Below are positions 28,309 through 41,823 of a stretch of 64,000 bases of DNA, piece after piece. The notes beneath the pieces were generated by a model. That model did no database searches and was not told the origin of the DNA. It was given only the letters and a program-made list of their open reading frames with translations. The position numbers were made by a program, and so were the translations under genes. The stretch is from Singulisphaera sp. GP187 (GTDB lineage Bacteria; Planctomycetota; Planctomycetia; Isosphaerales; Isosphaeraceae): assembly GCF_900129635.1 (NCBI RefSeq), contig NZ_FSRB01000003.1, positions 434,001 through 498,000 on the forward strand. Direction: 5' to 3'. The stretch's first letter is position 1. Each line of letters begins with the position of its first letter.

Positions 28309-29463
28309 TCAGCGTTCCATGCTCACGCTCGAGGCTCTCCACCGCGACGAGGCCTCCGGCTTGGCATAGCTCGGTTCCGGGGCGGTGGGCAGAGCAGGGC
28401 CGAGCAACTCGTCACTGAGCGAACCGCGGGTCGACGACAGAGCCACCGGGTCTCGCTCCGTCCGCATCGCTCCGTCGACGCCGAGCGGGACGGGTTCGCT
28501 CAAATGCACGCCTGCCGGCGGGGCGGGAAGTGTCTCACGAAGGGTGGTCGGTCCTTGTGCTTGCTGCTGGGGTGGGTGAGCGCCCGCGAACAGGGTAACC
28601 AGGTTGATCCGGTCGTAACCCTGCCTCGGGTCCTCCACAAAGAGGGCGGCGTACTTGTCCGCCGGGAACTCCTCGTTGATCTTGGTCGAACTTTGCGCGA
28701 ACGCGACTTCCAGGTTGAGACGATCGCGGACCCACTCGAGCTTCATCTTTTTCGGCAGGTAGACCGTCTCTTCAGGGTGGTTCCCATCAGGAACGCTGAG
28801 GTAATCCTCAATGATCGCTCGCGCGATCAGGGTCGAGTCGCCCGCGAAGAGCCGATGCTCCTTGATCCGGCGTGTCGACTCGGAGATGACGACGACCCGA
28901 GTGACTGTTTCGCCCCCCGCGCGGGTCGGGCTGAGGGTCAAAACGAGGGTGTCAGGGTCCTTCCCGCGGGTCACAGTACAGCCTGCGGCTTCATTCTCGG
29001 TGATGACGCGAAGCCCAAGCGCCTCGACAATCCATTCAGGCTGGAGCACGGCGGGAGAGAGAGGCGTCTTACCCGACTCGTCGTAGTCGCAGTAAAAGAT
29101 CGCCTTCTGATCGTTATCTTTGGTCCAGTACCAGAACTTCTCGTCGTTCGAACCGATATCGGCGACATCGCCGCCCGTCGACCTCACTTCGAGCCGGAAG
29201 TTGCGCGGACGCTCGAGGGCGAGATAGCCGTTGGCCGCCCCCATCGGGCGCCGCCCCTTGCTGACCGAGAGCGACGGCTTCGCCGAGATCTTCTCGATCC
29301 GTTCGGCGTTGCGGTTGTGCTCGGTGACGAGAGTCCGCGCCTCGAGTTGCGGCCTCGCAACGACGGGAGCCTGGCGCGCAAGGTTATCGACGCCCGCAGT
29401 CCGGCAGCCGGATTGGACGACGAGTAACAGCGCCGCGAAAGTGACAGGCCGAGCATACCTCAT
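28309..29463 (-). CDS. Outer-membrane lipoprotein with LolA/LolB-like middle
   Basis: A 384-residue protein with a lipoprotein signal (MRYARPVTFAALLLVVQSGC, Cys at 20). The central 200 residues suggest a LolA/LolB-type half-barrel (ANGYLALERPRNFRLEVRS, then EKFWYWTKDN and a long series of alternating strands); the last ~90 residues are Pro/Ala-rich and probably disordered. A role in lipid or lipoprotein handling is an inference from this shape. The gene lies 182 bp from the aminotransferase gene on the same strand. Confidence 0.75.
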   Translation of the reverse strand: MRYARPVTFAALLLVVQSGCRTAGVDNLARQAPVVARPQLEARTLVTEHNRNAERIEKISAKPSLSVSKGRRPMGAANGYLALERPRNFRLEVRSTGGDVADIGSNDEKFWYWTKDNDQKAIFYCDYDESGKTPLSPAVLQPEWIVEALGLRVITENEAAGCTVTRGKDPDTLVLTLSPTRAGGETVTRVVVISESTRRIKEHRLFAGDSTLIARAIIEDYLSVPDGNHPEETVYLPKKMKLEWVRDRLNLEVAFAQSSTKINEEFPADKYAALFVEDPRQGYDRINLVTLFAGAHPPQQQAQGPTTLRETLPAPPAGVHLSEPVPLGVDGAMRTERDPVALSSTRGSLSDELLGPALPTAPEPSYAKPEASSRWRASSVSMER

Positions 29464-32760: not shown

Positions 32761-32993
32761 AGCCGGTGTGAGAAGGCGTCTCGTGAGATCGTCTTCTCAC
32801 ACACCCCCAAATCCCAAACCCGGCAAGCGCTTCGGAGCGTTCGGCCCCTGTTCCGCCTATCCATCGACATTCCAACTATCTTGCGCATCTCAACGTTTCG
32901 CGACAATCGCGATGACGGATTGTCGATGATCGGCTAACATGCCGCCCGTTGTCGCTCACCCCCCCGAATCTCTTAGGAGCGCGTCCTCCCCTC

Positions 32994-35933
32994 ATGCGCT
33001 TCCGATGGCTCTGGACTGCTGGCTTGCTCCTCGGACTGCTCCCAAGGCTTGACCACCCCGTCGCCGCGGGTGAGGTTCCGGTCCGTGCTTCGACGCAACG
33101 CGCTCGACTGGCGATTCCGGCCGGCTTGCCACGCTATGAGATCGAAGCGCGGCTGGATATCGACCGAAGGCTGGTGACCGCTCGTGAGCGGGTTCGCTTC
33201 ACCAACCGAAGCGCCGTGGCCACCCGCGAACTGGTCTTTCACGTCTACCCTCGCTACCGGATGAAGGAGGAGGACCGGCCGGCGCTCTCCAAAACGCTGG
33301 AAGTGCTCCGGCTCAGTCCCGAAGAGTCGATGGACGCCGACGGACGGCGGATGAACGTCGGCCGGGTCCGGGTGGATGGCCAGTCGGCCCCGTTCGCATT
33401 CGACCCGGAAGTCGATACGGTCATGATTGTCCCGTTGGCGAAGCCGGTTGAGCCGGGGCTGGGGGTCGTCGCCGAGATCGAGTTCAACGTCGAGCTCCCC
33501 GATATCTGGGGCCGGTGGGGACACCATCACGGCCTCACCTACCTCTTGAACTGGTACCCGGTCCTCGCGCACCACGACGACCGTGGCTGGGAGCGAACAC
33601 CTTACGTCCCGTGGCACCAGCCCTGGCACCAGGAGGCTGGCCACTACACCGTCCGGTTCGACACCCCCGAGGGCCAGGTGATCGCCTCCTCGGGCCGGAT
33701 CAGCGAACGCAAACCAGGTGCGCCCGGCCGGCAAGTCTCCACGATCGTGGCCAGCCCGGCGCGTGACTTCGCCCTGGTCTGCTCCGATCGGTTCGAGGTC
33801 CGCGAGCAACAGGTCGGCCCGACGCTCCTACGGGTCGTCTCATTGCCCGAGCACAAGGCCAACGCCGAGAAAGTCCTCGAATACGCGGCCGAGGTCCTCC
33901 CACTTTACGAGCGCTGGTTCGGCCCCTACTTCGATGACGAATTCGAGATCGCCCCCTCGTTTTTCGGCTGGAACGGCAACGAGTGCTCGGGCCTGGTGCT
34001 GCTCGACGACCGCGTCATGCGGGTCCCCTCCTCGGGGGAACGGTACATCGACCACCTCGTGACCCACGAAACGTGCCACCAGTGGTTCTGGAACGTCGTC
34101 GGCACCGACGGATATGCCGAAACGTTCATGGACGAAGGCCTGGTCAACGCATTCACGGCGATCCGCCTCGACGAGAAGTATGGCCGGAACGCCCCCTTGA
34201 TCCACTGGGGGAAAGGCCTGACCTGGCTCCCCACGATCGGCCGAGAAGACCTGCGGCTCTCCGGCTACTACGGCTGGCGCGCCCGGGGCAACAACGGGCC
34301 GGTGATCCAGGACATCAAGTCGATGGGCAACCTGAACGCCTTGTTCAGCCTGGCCTACGACCGTGGCGGCAAGGTGATCGAGATGATCAAGAACCGGCTC
34401 GGCACCGAGCGGTTCTTCGCCTTCTTCCGGAAGATTTACCACGAGTACGCGTTCGAGACGTTCCACTACGCCGACCTGAAGCGCGAGCTGACGGCATTCG
34501 ACCCCAGCTTCGACTGGAATGGCTTCCTCGACGGTTGGCTCGTTGAGCATAAGGACACGGATTGGGCCGTCGAGCACGTCAAGGACACCCCCGCAACCGA
34601 CAATTCCGGCCAGCGCTCCCTGACGGTCGAGCTCAAGCAGACCGGGGAGATGATCGAGCCGACGGTCGTGCTCTGCCGCTGCGGCCCCGACGAGATTCGG
34701 GTGCCGATCTGGCCCGACCGCGGGAGCTACGACATCCCAGGCGGCCACGTCGCCCACGCTCCCAAGGAGGACCGCTGGGTCGTGACGGTCCAGGCTCCCT
34801 CCTCACCGTCGCAGGTGATCGTGGATCCCGACCACGCGCTGCTCGACGCGGTCCCGGACAACAACCGCTGGAAGCCGGAGATCGCCTGGCGGTTCACCCC
34901 GTTCATGACGCCGCTCGACGAATCGTCCCAGTTTCAATCCTATGACCGGACCTCGATCGTCGCCGGGCCGTTCATCGACCAGTACGCCCGCGGCGGTTTC
35001 AAAATCGGCGCCCAGCGCGTGAATCGCTGGCAGGCGACCGTCTGGGCAGGGGCCGAGCCCGCGCTCCGCGAAGCGATCTTCGGCGGCCAGTTCGCCTTGA
35101 TGCAGTTCCCCTGGCCCCACTGGTCGCTGGGCGTCTTCTACGAGGAAGGGCTCTACAACTTCTACAACGACAAGCGGCACTCGGGCGGCCGTGCCTTCTT
35201 GCGGTACCGGTTCCTGGAGACGTCCAGCTTCCTGATCGACGACCAAGGGTTTGCGGAGCTCTACTTCGGCACCGGCAACGAGTTCTGGCAAGGAGACGAC
35301 GGCCGGCCGGTCAACGGCAATCTCAACGCCGTGGGGGGCCGCTACCGCCTGAGTACGCTCTTCCCCTACTGGGATCCGGTCCAGGGCTTCGAGATCGACG
35401 CCACGGCCGAGTACGGCGACCGCTCGTTCGGCTCGGCGGCAACCTACGTGCGGATCGCCGGCGAAGTCGGGATCGTCCGCCCAATCCCAACCTGGTCGGG
35501 CGAGCCCTCCAAGAGTCGAATCGCCGTCCGCCTCTACGGCGGCTACGGCGGTCCCGACACCGTCCCCTTGTTCCGCCTCGGCGGCGGCCGTCGCCTCCGC
35601 GCACTCGACCTGAGCCAGGACGTCGGCAGCTCCGTCTGGCTCTCCACCTTCGAGTGGCGATTCCCGATCTGGCGCGACATCGACCAGGACCTTGCGGACC
35701 ACATCCTCAGCGTCCGCAACCTGCTGGGAGCGGTCTTCTACGACGTCGGCCAGTCGTACCTCCGCGGTGAGTGGAACCCCGTCGTCCACGGCGTCGGCGT
35801 CGGCATCCGGGTCGACACCATCCTCTTCGCCTTCCTCGAACGCGCCAGTCTCCGTGTCGACATCGCCCAACCCGTCGGAGTCGGCACCGGCCACGGCCCC
35901 GTGATCTGGTTTGGGCTGAATCAGGTCTTTTGA
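32994..35933 (+). CDS. M1-family metallopeptidase fused to an Omp85-like beta-barrel
   Basis: A 979-residue exported protein. After a signal peptide (MRFRWLWTAGLLLGLLP..., about residues 1-27) comes an M1 aminopeptidase-type domain: zinc site HETCH (358-362), then 18 residues and the third ligand in MDEGLVNAF (Glu381). The GAMEN exopeptidase motif is replaced by GNECSG, so true aminopeptidase activity is uncertain. From about residue 640 the sequence becomes aromatic, alternating strands with FRLGGGRRLRALDL, STFEWRFPIWR and a terminal FGLNQVF with Phe last, as in Omp85/surface-antigen barrels. This implies an outer-membrane-tethered protease. The ATG at 32994 is preceded by aggag at a longer than usual 15 bases. 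The stop is 16 bp from that of the convergent next gene. Confidence 0.85.
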   Translation: MRFRWLWTAGLLLGLLPRLDHPVAAGEVPVRASTQRARLAIPAGLPRYEIEARLDIDRRLVTARERVRFTNRSAVATRELVFHVYPRYRMKEEDRPALSKTLEVLRLSPEESMDADGRRMNVGRVRVDGQSAPFAFDPEVDTVMIVPLAKPVEPGLGVVAEIEFNVELPDIWGRWGHHHGLTYLLNWYPVLAHHDDRGWERTPYVPWHQPWHQEAGHYTVRFDTPEGQVIASSGRISERKPGAPGRQVSTIVASPARDFALVCSDRFEVREQQVGPTLLRVVSLPEHKANAEKVLEYAAEVLPLYERWFGPYFDDEFEIAPSFFGWNGNECSGLVLLDDRVMRVPSSGERYIDHLVTHETCHQWFWNVVGTDGYAETFMDEGLVNAFTAIRLDEKYGRNAPLIHWGKGLTWLPTIGREDLRLSGYYGWRARGNNGPVIQDIKSMGNLNALFSLAYDRGGKVIEMIKNRLGTERFFAFFRKIYHEYAFETFHYADLKRELTAFDPSFDWNGFLDGWLVEHKDTDWAVEHVKDTPATDNSGQRSLTVELKQTGEMIEPTVVLCRCGPDEIRVPIWPDRGSYDIPGGHVAHAPKEDRWVVTVQAPSSPSQVIVDPDHALLDAVPDNNRWKPEIAWRFTPFMTPLDESSQFQSYDRTSIVAGPFIDQYARGGFKIGAQRVNRWQATVWAGAEPALREAIFGGQFALMQFPWPHWSLGVFYEEGLYNFYNDKRHSGGRAFLRYRFLETSSFLIDDQGFAELYFGTGNEFWQGDDGRPVNGNLNAVGGRYRLSTLFPYWDPVQGFEIDATAEYGDRSFGSAATYVRIAGEVGIVRPIPTWSGEPSKSRIAVRLYGGYGGPDTVPLFRLGGGRRLRALDLSQDVGSSVWLSTFEWRFPIWRDIDQDLADHILSVRNLLGAVFYDVGQSYLRGEWNPVVHGVGVGIRVDTILFAFLERASLRVDIAQPVGVGTGHGPVIWFGLNQVF

Positions 35934-40137: not shown

Positions 40138-40443
40138 GATAGTGATTCGTTCCGAGACCGCACACGTTGTAAAATCACCCGTTTTGGGGAGTGGTTTTCC
40201 GAGGCTCAGAATCGAGCCTGCGTATGGGAGCAAGTGGGGGCATGGGGCGTCCGCACTCCCTATTTAAGAGGGCTGAACCGAAGTGGTAGGCGCAGTCAGG
40301 CCGGCGTCAGCTTTTTGACGATTTAAGGCGACTTCGACAAGTCGTCGACGCCGGACGATCCGGTTGTATGATGGCTCGACGGCCAGTCACAGGGATCGGC
40401 CCCGAACGCTTTGCCTCCGCAAGTCAATGAGGATCGACCTGGC
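40138..40443. other. Divergent intergenic region before the permease
   Basis: 306 bp with no supported gene. The permease promoter should lie here, but I could not choose one with confidence. Confidence 0.5.
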
Positions 40444-41823
40444 ATGCTGCGCCGACGCCTTTCGTTATTGCAGGCCGTCAGCCTGAACATGGCGATGATG
40501 GTCGGGATCGGTCCGTTCATCACGATCCCGGAGTTTCTCAAGAAGCTGGACGGGCCGCAGGTCATGATCGGCTGGGTGATCGGCGCCCTGATCGCCCTGG
40601 CCGACGGCCTGGTCTGGAGTGAGCTCGCGGCGGCGTTTCCCGGTTCGGGCGGGACGTTTCACTTCTTCGACGCGGTCTACGGCGAGTCCAGGGCCGGACG
40701 GTTCCTCAAGTTTCTCTTCGTCTGGCAGTTCCTCTTCAGCGCTCCGCTCGAAGTCGCCACCGGGGCGATCGGCCTGGCGCACTACGTCGGCTATCTCTGG
40801 CCGACCCTGAAGCTCACGGCCTGGTCCTGGCAGGTCTCGGTCCCGAGTCTCGGCGGTTTCACCTGGCAGGTTCAGAACGAACAGGTGTTGACGATCGCCG
40901 TGATGGCGGCGATCACCACACTTGCTTATCGCCGGATCGAAGTGGCCGGACGACTCATGGTCGTCCTCTGGGCGGGGATGCTCGCCACCGTCGCCGTGGT
41001 GATCGCGTCCGGGCTCGGCCACTTCAATGCGGCCCAGGCGTTCAACTTTCCCTCGGACGCCTTCACACTCGACCGTCGGTTCGCGATGGGGCTGGGCGCC
41101 GCGGTCGGAATCGCGATGTACGACTTCCTCGGCTACTACCAGATCTGCTACCTGGGCGATGAAGTGGACGACGCCCCCCGGACGATCCCTCGCGCCATCC
41201 TGATCTCAGTCGTTGCCGTCGCCCTCGTCTATTTGACGATGAATGTCAGCATTCTTGGCGTCCTGCCCTGGCAGGAAGTCACCGCGTCGACGCACGTCGC
41301 CAGCGACATGATGCAGCGGCTCTACGGCTCAACCGCCGCGCGAGTCGTCACGATGATGATCATCTGGACGGCGGCGGCCTCCACCTTCGCGGCCTTGCTC
41401 GGCTACAGCCGGGTCCCCTATGCCGCGGCCCGTTCGGGGCACTTCTTCCAAGGATTGGCCCGAACCCACCCGACGGGCCAGTTCCCGCACCGCTCGCTGC
41501 TCCTGATCGCCGGGCTGGCCACGCTCGCCTGTCTGGCCGACCTCGTCACGGTGATCGAAGCCCTGCTCACGTCGCGGATCCTGATCCAGTTCGTCGCCCA
41601 GATCGCCACGGTCTTCTACCTCCGAACCCGCCCCGACCTCCTCGAAAAAATGCCGTTCCGAATGTGGTTCTTCCCACTCCCGGCGCTCTTCGCCTTGGTC
41701 GGCTGGCTCTTTGTGTTCGGCACCTCAAGACCCCAGATCATTCTCTATGGGGTCGGTTCACTCGTCCTCGGCGCGGTCGTTTTCATGGTCTGGAACCGGC
41801 TGGCGGCAAGAGTCATACCTTGA
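40444..41823 (+). CDS. APC-family amino acid permease
   Basis: A 459-residue inner-membrane transporter with about 12 helices. The first helix carries the APC unwinding motif (MMVGIGPFITIPEFL), followed by MIGWVIGALIALADGLVWSELAAAFPGSGGTFHFF. The sixth helix region contains AVGIAMYDFLGYYQ, then GDEVDDAPRTIPRAI, as in LAT/ApcT relatives. It probably moves an amino acid or amine; the substrate is not readable. The ATG at 40444 has tgagga ten bases upstream; an in-frame TTG at 40411 is an alternative. Confidence 0.92.
   Translation: MLRRRLSLLQAVSLNMAMMVGIGPFITIPEFLKKLDGPQVMIGWVIGALIALADGLVWSELAAAFPGSGGTFHFFDAVYGESRAGRFLKFLFVWQFLFSAPLEVATGAIGLAHYVGYLWPTLKLTAWSWQVSVPSLGGFTWQVQNEQVLTIAVMAAITTLAYRRIEVAGRLMVVLWAGMLATVAVVIASGLGHFNAAQAFNFPSDAFTLDRRFAMGLGAAVGIAMYDFLGYYQICYLGDEVDDAPRTIPRAILISVVAVALVYLTMNVSILGVLPWQEVTASTHVASDMMQRLYGSTAARVVTMMIIWTAAASTFAALLGYSRVPYAAARSGHFFQGLARTHPTGQFPHRSLLLIAGLATLACLADLVTVIEALLTSRILIQFVAQIATVFYLRTRPDLLEKMPFRMWFFPLPALFALVGWLFVFGTSRPQIILYGVGSLVLGAVVFMVWNRLAARVIP

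Follow-up and report, generated by a model that had tools for sequence, protein, structure and literature searches.

The 64,000-nucleotide stretch of the Singulisphaera sp. GP187 genome analysed here (contig NZ_FSRB01000003.1, positions 434,001 to 498,000, hereafter referred to as the window) was found to contain a gene, located at 32994..35933 on the + strand, that encodes a single 979-aa protein. From N- to C-terminus it consists of a signal peptide, a complete M1 metallopeptidase (domains I-III), a conserved 40-residue linker and a C-terminal Omp85 barrel. Among Omp85 proteins without POTRA domains it represents a new variant. The combination appears to be undescribed so far: the published ten-subfamily classification of Omp85 proteins contains no M1 type (PMC4104836), and full-text literature searches, whose reach did not extend to subscription papers, returned no description of an M1-Omp85 protein. 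Judged from sequence, structure prediction and analogy with known systems, it is probably an M1 (amino)peptidase that is anchored in the outer membrane and faces the periplasm; both topology and substrate are what we infer.

Peptidase, linker and barrel

The source genome (10.7 Mb, 5 contigs) belongs to the family Isosphaeraceae and lies near Singulisphaera acidiphila, the orthologue of which is 94% identical to the window protein. The open frame covers 32949-35933 (+). Because the S. acidiphila orthologue begins at the same ATG, with no in-frame start codon upstream, the ATG at 32994 was preferred to the alternative in-frame TTG at 32949, which was judged less likely. Coordinates given below are window positions on the + strand unless stated otherwise. 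Residues 1-25 (MRFRWLWTAGLLLGLLPRLDHPVAA; 32994..33068), judged by eye, look like a Sec-type signal peptide; AlphaFold2 (AF2) predicted a helix at residues 2-15, and the signal peptides of relatives have classic ...AQ or ...ARAQ cleavage regions. The protein is most likely exported via Sec. Both parts were read in one frame at about 80 loci, including the complete S. acidiphila chromosome, which excludes a chance or assembly fusion; among the 81 sequences read the only exceptions were fragments truncated at a contig end or by a break in the gene. Comparison with S. acidiphila gave ratios of nonsynonymous to synonymous substitution rates (dN/dS) of 0.10 for the M1 part and 0.05 for the barrel.

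Pfam matched residues 297-501 to Peptidase_M1 (PF01433) with an E-value of 4e-14, within a catalytic domain that spans residues 297-520 (33882..34553). This domain carries the zinc motif HETCH (residues 358-362, 34065..34079; H358 and E359 in 74 of 79 homologues, H362 in 78 of 79), the third zinc ligand E381, which completes HExxH-18-E (34134..34136; 78/79), and the catalytic Tyr, Y455, in AYDRGG, the equivalent of YxKG (34356..34358; 79/80). The active-site residues are complete in 74 of the 79 homologues. The catalytic domain is preceded by the M1 N-terminal beta domain (residues 45-296, 33126..33881), also recovered by Foldseek and predicted with a local confidence score (pLDDT) mostly of 80-95, and followed by the domain III beta-sandwich (residues 521-611, 34554..34826), where AF2 placed strands. 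Since the AF2 model of this half is good (the full-length prediction is reliable over most of residues 45-400 and 465-610) and Foldseek aligned about 620 columns to IRAP/ERAP (E 7e-22) with domain III included, domains I-III are all present. By HExxH-18-E and the catalytic Tyr the protein can be assigned to peptidase family M1, as an earlier note, made by a model from the letters of the sequence, had proposed.

The Glu of the GAMEN motif in M1 aminopeptidases binds the substrate amine. A gap-free alignment with GAMENWG placed N-G-N-E330-C-S-G (residues 327-333, 33972..33992) at this position; Met and Asn are gone, leaving NGNEC, but 77 of the 79 homologues have retained the Glu, E330. The earlier note had called GAMEN lost and deduced that the specificity must differ. 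The loss holds for Met and Asn but not for the functional Glu, and with the amine-binding residue retained the deduction does not follow. In one homologue (L106, genome G496) E330 is replaced by Gln next to an intact zinc site, a natural variant useful for specificity tests. The window protein shares domains I-III, HExxH-18-E, the catalytic Tyr and the GAMEN-position Glu with M1 aminopeptidases (IRAP, ERAP and the cold-active aminopeptidase 3cia) and differs from them in the reduced GAMEN and in the linker and Omp85 barrel that replace domain IV.

Searches of the window protein alone against Pfam and NCBIfam gave no Omp85 call at the C-terminus, and an hmmsearch run with the barrel profile on PDB sequences gave no genuine match (a nanobody, E 0.44), so profile-profile and fold comparison were required. 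With hhalign, a profile of about 80 homologous barrels matched planctomycete BamA barrels at P 95.9% and E 5e-9; with the first 22 barrel sequences the match was at P 92.5% and E 4.7e-7, compared to P <= 0.2% in reversed, column-shuffled, M1 and domain III controls. AF2 prediction of the barrel alone (residues 653-979, 34950..35930) yielded 16 strands at moderate confidence, with pLDDT 69 and a predicted TM score (pTM) of 0.70, and the top 50 matches in a PDB fold search with it were all TamA, BamA or Sam50. The Omp85 family PF01103 was found above its curated cut-off in two relatives (L057 and G026). Hydropathy alternation in the strands was 2.31, compared to 1.23 +/- 0.24 for random placements of equal length in the M1 part (0 of 2000 reached it).

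A (V/I)RG(Y/F)-(F/G)xDxG lid-lock has been reported in all Omp85 structures, and a beta-12 Glu was seen in CdiB (PMC7644211); residue-level lid-lock numbering for E. coli BamA was not found in the literature search. The longest loop in the barrel of the window protein (26 residues) is loop 6, which connects predicted strands 11 and 12 and has GGGRRLR869AL (35580..35606) at the (V/I)RG(F/Y) position. R869 is present in 79 of 79 homologues and is followed by Gly in 57 and by Ala in 22; in Isosphaeraceae the motif has drifted to LRAL, as here, or HRAL, while many other members retain RGF or RGY (canonical in L057, L058, L101 and L106). The putative lid-lock Glu of predicted strand 12, E887 (35652..35654), is Glu in 77 and Asp in 2 of the 79, and the FxDxG of predicted strand 13, F915-Y-D917-V-G919 (35736..35750), has D917 and G919 in every one. 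The last strand, WFGLNQVF (35907..35930), is of the beta-signal type, with a terminal Phe in 77 homologues and Tyr in the other two. The C-terminal region can be placed in the Omp85/TpsB superfamily by its predicted barrel, loop 6 and strand 12/13 features, and the barrel ending in Phe described in the earlier note is what the last ~330 residues are predicted to form. BamA and TamA share with it the barrel fold, loop-6 Arg, FxDxG, beta-12 Glu and terminal aromatic residue; they have POTRA domains where this protein has an M1 peptidase, and the sequence similarity is visible by profiles only.

The two halves are joined by a conserved 40-residue linker (DPDHALLDAVPDNNRW...TPLDESSQFQSYDR; residues 612-652, 34827..34949), in which N624 and W626 are found in 80 of 80 homologues and mean conservation, 0.635, is at the level of the catalytic domain. 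Domain III occupies the usual position of POTRA. No POTRA was detected when domain III plus linker was aligned to planctomycete POTRAs by hhalign (P 0.1%, compared to 96.8% in a POTRA-POTRA control). POTRA domains are usual in Omp85 proteins but not universal, non-POTRA subfamilies being on record (PMC4104836).

Distribution, descent and inactive paralogues

The protein is present in 21 of 45 genomes of the order, and a barrel profile search detected it in 126 of 398 sampled Planctomycetia genomes, which represent 61 of 186 genera and five families. Identity drops to 31-39% in other families of the class. The family tree largely tracks taxonomic families, and distances calculated for the M1 and barrel halves correlate at 0.93. 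We take the gene to descend from a single old fusion, inherited mainly vertically and lost many times. Outside Planctomycetia no orthologue was found in a 392-genome sample of the phylum; the one exception was an M1-like/Omp85 protein of degenerate type from a single genome (L132). Other barrel matches outside the class proved to be Peptidase_MA-like/PD40/Omp85 proteins or ordinary BamA (L134). Matches obtained by tblastn against plasmids were to the M1 half only.

The degenerate protein (L132:146-3025 (-), genome G077, another class) has a match to the M1 N-terminal region, lacks HExxH and carries an Omp85 barrel with LRG (PF01103, E 1.5e-8); it can be regarded as a second, degenerate M1-like/Omp85 type.

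The related genomes G427, G454, G517 and G541 encode a second copy with QA-T-C-H for HE-x-x-H, a motif in which the first His ligand of zinc is replaced, as is the catalytic Glu. These copies (L108, L139, L141 and L143) coexist with intact ones (L109, L140, L142 and L144). In L145 (genome G520) the whole zinc site is lost. The tree sets this loss apart from that in the four genomes, and catalytically dead paralogues arose at least twice. All five retain the lid-lock residues. Within the four-genome dead set, pairwise dN/dS was 0.05-0.11 for both the M1 region and the barrel region, and the inactivated catalytic domain gave 0.02-0.07. Active copies showed equally low values. This strong purifying selection marks the four-genome paralogues as pseudo-enzymes that are being maintained, not as genes in decay; some of the function is therefore independent of catalysis. 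The conservation of dead copies implies that binding of the substrate, together with the barrel, serves a purpose in itself.

Predicted topology and function

The explanation that we favour, an outer-membrane-anchored peptidase facing the periplasm, would work as follows. The protein would be exported via Sec and inserted into the outer membrane through its C-terminal 16-stranded barrel. Since an Omp85 barrel of 16 strands is expected to have its two ends in the periplasm, and by analogy with PlpD (see below), the M1 domain would be held on that side, directly beneath the membrane. Its most likely task there would be to trim peptides or the N-termini of proteins along the inner face of the outer membrane. 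The barrel would be the anchor, and its loop-6 lid-lock could also make it a gate or sensor.

The closest precedent in architecture is PlpD, the patatin-Omp85 protein of Pseudomonas aeruginosa, which is likewise one exported polypeptide with an N-terminal enzyme and a C-terminal 16-strand Omp85 barrel (PMC11116518). The parallel with PlpD and type Vd proteins drawn by the earlier note stands as far as this architecture goes and fails at the POTRA, which PlpD has and the window protein lacks. In addition, the window protein has a conserved linker of about 40 residues, the enzyme is a patatin lipase in PlpD and an M1 metallopeptidase of ~600 residues here, and the fusion described here is class-wide in Planctomycetia. 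No patatin-like passenger was found in the window protein by Pfam, which detected PF01433 only. By the features checked (no patatin, no POTRA) the protein would not be classed as type Vd. Even for PlpD, which for years went under the name of type Vd secretion system, export of the passenger is disputed: a later study reported it to be periplasmic and judged it highly unfavourable for a folded enzyme to cross an Omp85 barrel (PMC11116518). By analogy, this argument should be stronger for an M1 enzyme.

Several points weigh against the favoured explanation. AF2 prediction of the barrel alone converged in only two of five models, and the barrel is poor in the full-length prediction, so that M1-barrel docking is not readable from the model. 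The linker, at 40 residues, is long enough to cross the barrel lumen, making surface display compatible by length. The gene is patchy and absent from most sampled Planctomycetia, which would make its role accessory.

Among the alternatives, the M1 domain may have replaced POTRA as the substrate receiver, which would make the protein an Omp85 factor for assembly or quality control; its clients, outer membrane proteins or peptides, would be bound and failed ones clipped. No POTRA was detected, the lid-lock and beta-signal features are like those of the assembly factors BamA and TamA, and the dead paralogues under purifying selection retain the barrel signature; moreover, Heinz and Lithgow take an assembly role as the conservative default for Omp85 subfamilies without known function (PMC4104836). 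We nevertheless consider such a role unlikely: these genomes have a separate BamA, there is no conserved linkage to bam genes or other neighbours, and catalysis matters, given that most members have an intact M1 site. A related and likewise unlikely idea is a machine with peptidase in place of POTRA, in which M1 would receive clients, the barrel with loop 6 would handle or sense them, proteolysis would be coupled to these steps and the dead paralogues would act as pure receptors.

Equally unlikely is a type Vd-like autotransporter, in which M1 would pass through the barrel, or travel together with it, to be displayed on the surface or shed as an exopeptidase. The enzyme-linker-barrel order from N to C, a conserved linker able to span the lumen and the nutritional use that an M1 exopeptidase could have are all consistent with it. 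It is opposed by the periplasmic passenger of its own prototype, PlpD, for which folded translocation is highly unfavourable (PMC11116518), by the large M1 part, by the expected periplasmic position of both barrel ends, including the N-terminal one, and by lumen-closing lid-lock residues that are essentially invariant. The same evidence speaks against the suggestion of the earlier note that the protease is cargo in the manner of type Vd proteins.

A peptide uptake device, with the barrel as a pore for extracellular peptides and M1 cutting them on entry at its periplasmic mouth, seems very unlikely. Passive pores could matter in S. acidiphila, reported to be without TonB or TonB-dependent receptors (PMC3422733), and an amino-acid permease gene lies near, at 40411-41823; however, loop 6 acts as a plug in the lumen of Omp85 barrels, the residues of the lock are conserved, and the permease is found at only two relatives' loci and is not a conserved neighbour. 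Finally, a spurious Omp85 call, with the C-terminal region being soluble or an unrelated barrel, can draw on the missing PF01103 match in the window protein itself and is hardly credible given the above-cut-off matches in relatives, the profile-profile match with clean controls, the fold search, the invariant lid-lock residues and the hydropathy alternation.

Related architectures and genomic neighbourhood

To our knowledge, Omp85 barrels are almost always discussed together with POTRA domains and protein assembly. A family that extends across a class, with a peptidase at the POTRA position and naturally dead paralogues maintained by selection, allows the role of the barrel to be compared cleanly in the presence and absence of catalysis. 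The family is relevant to the purpose of enzyme-Omp85 fusions (patatin, metallophosphoesterase, peptidase) and to whether the enzymes act in the periplasm, and adds a self-contained envelope enzyme to Planctomycetes, a group with a poorly characterised envelope.

Pfam gave no match in the window protein at E <= 10 to PF00149, which we take to be the calcineurin-like metallophosphoesterase family and not a peptidase family, or to PD40. The Omp85 'Metallo' subfamily of Heinz and Lithgow 2014 also has a non-POTRA metalloenzyme ahead of the barrel, PF00149 there in contrast to PF01433 here (PMC4104836). As this 'metalloprotease' subfamily is defined by PF00149, its published name may mislead. The nearest other non-POTRA type is WD40-Omp85 (PMC4104836), the N-terminus of which is non-POTRA as in the proteins L059 and L135. 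The latter have an HExxH gluzincin-like domain upstream of a barrel that matches the barrel profile weakly; they differ from the M1-Omp85 protein in that the peptidase-like domain is Peptidase_MA-like, not M1, and a beta-propeller is inserted between it and the barrel. Single open reading frames combining a Peptidase_MA-like domain, PD40 beta-propeller and Omp85 barrel were observed in other Planctomycetota classes (L059:445-3384 (-), L135:189-3182 (+), L133 and L138), with HExxH intact as HEFTH/HEYAH in L059 and L135 and absent in L133 and L138.

A terminator-like inverted repeat with 13-nt arms (32766..32802, no strand assigned) lies just past the stop of the upstream ketoacyl synthase gene and suggests that the fusion gene is a separate transcription unit. 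Downstream there is a convergent gene for a CdaA-type diadenylate cyclase. Comparison of 13 neighbourhoods revealed no operon partner conserved beyond close relatives; the fusion protein seems self-contained.

Two further observations were made in the source genome. Its BamA gene (L001, C5:3131779-3132663 and upstream) seems to be split, with POTRA and barrel parts in different frames and an open frame of 546 aa compared to 1027 aa in S. acidiphila, either by a frameshift or by an assembly error. In the window, 28309-29463 (-) encodes a 384-aa protein with no Pfam match that looks exported, has a lipobox-like N-terminus (VQSGC) and is conserved next to the aminotransferase in relatives.

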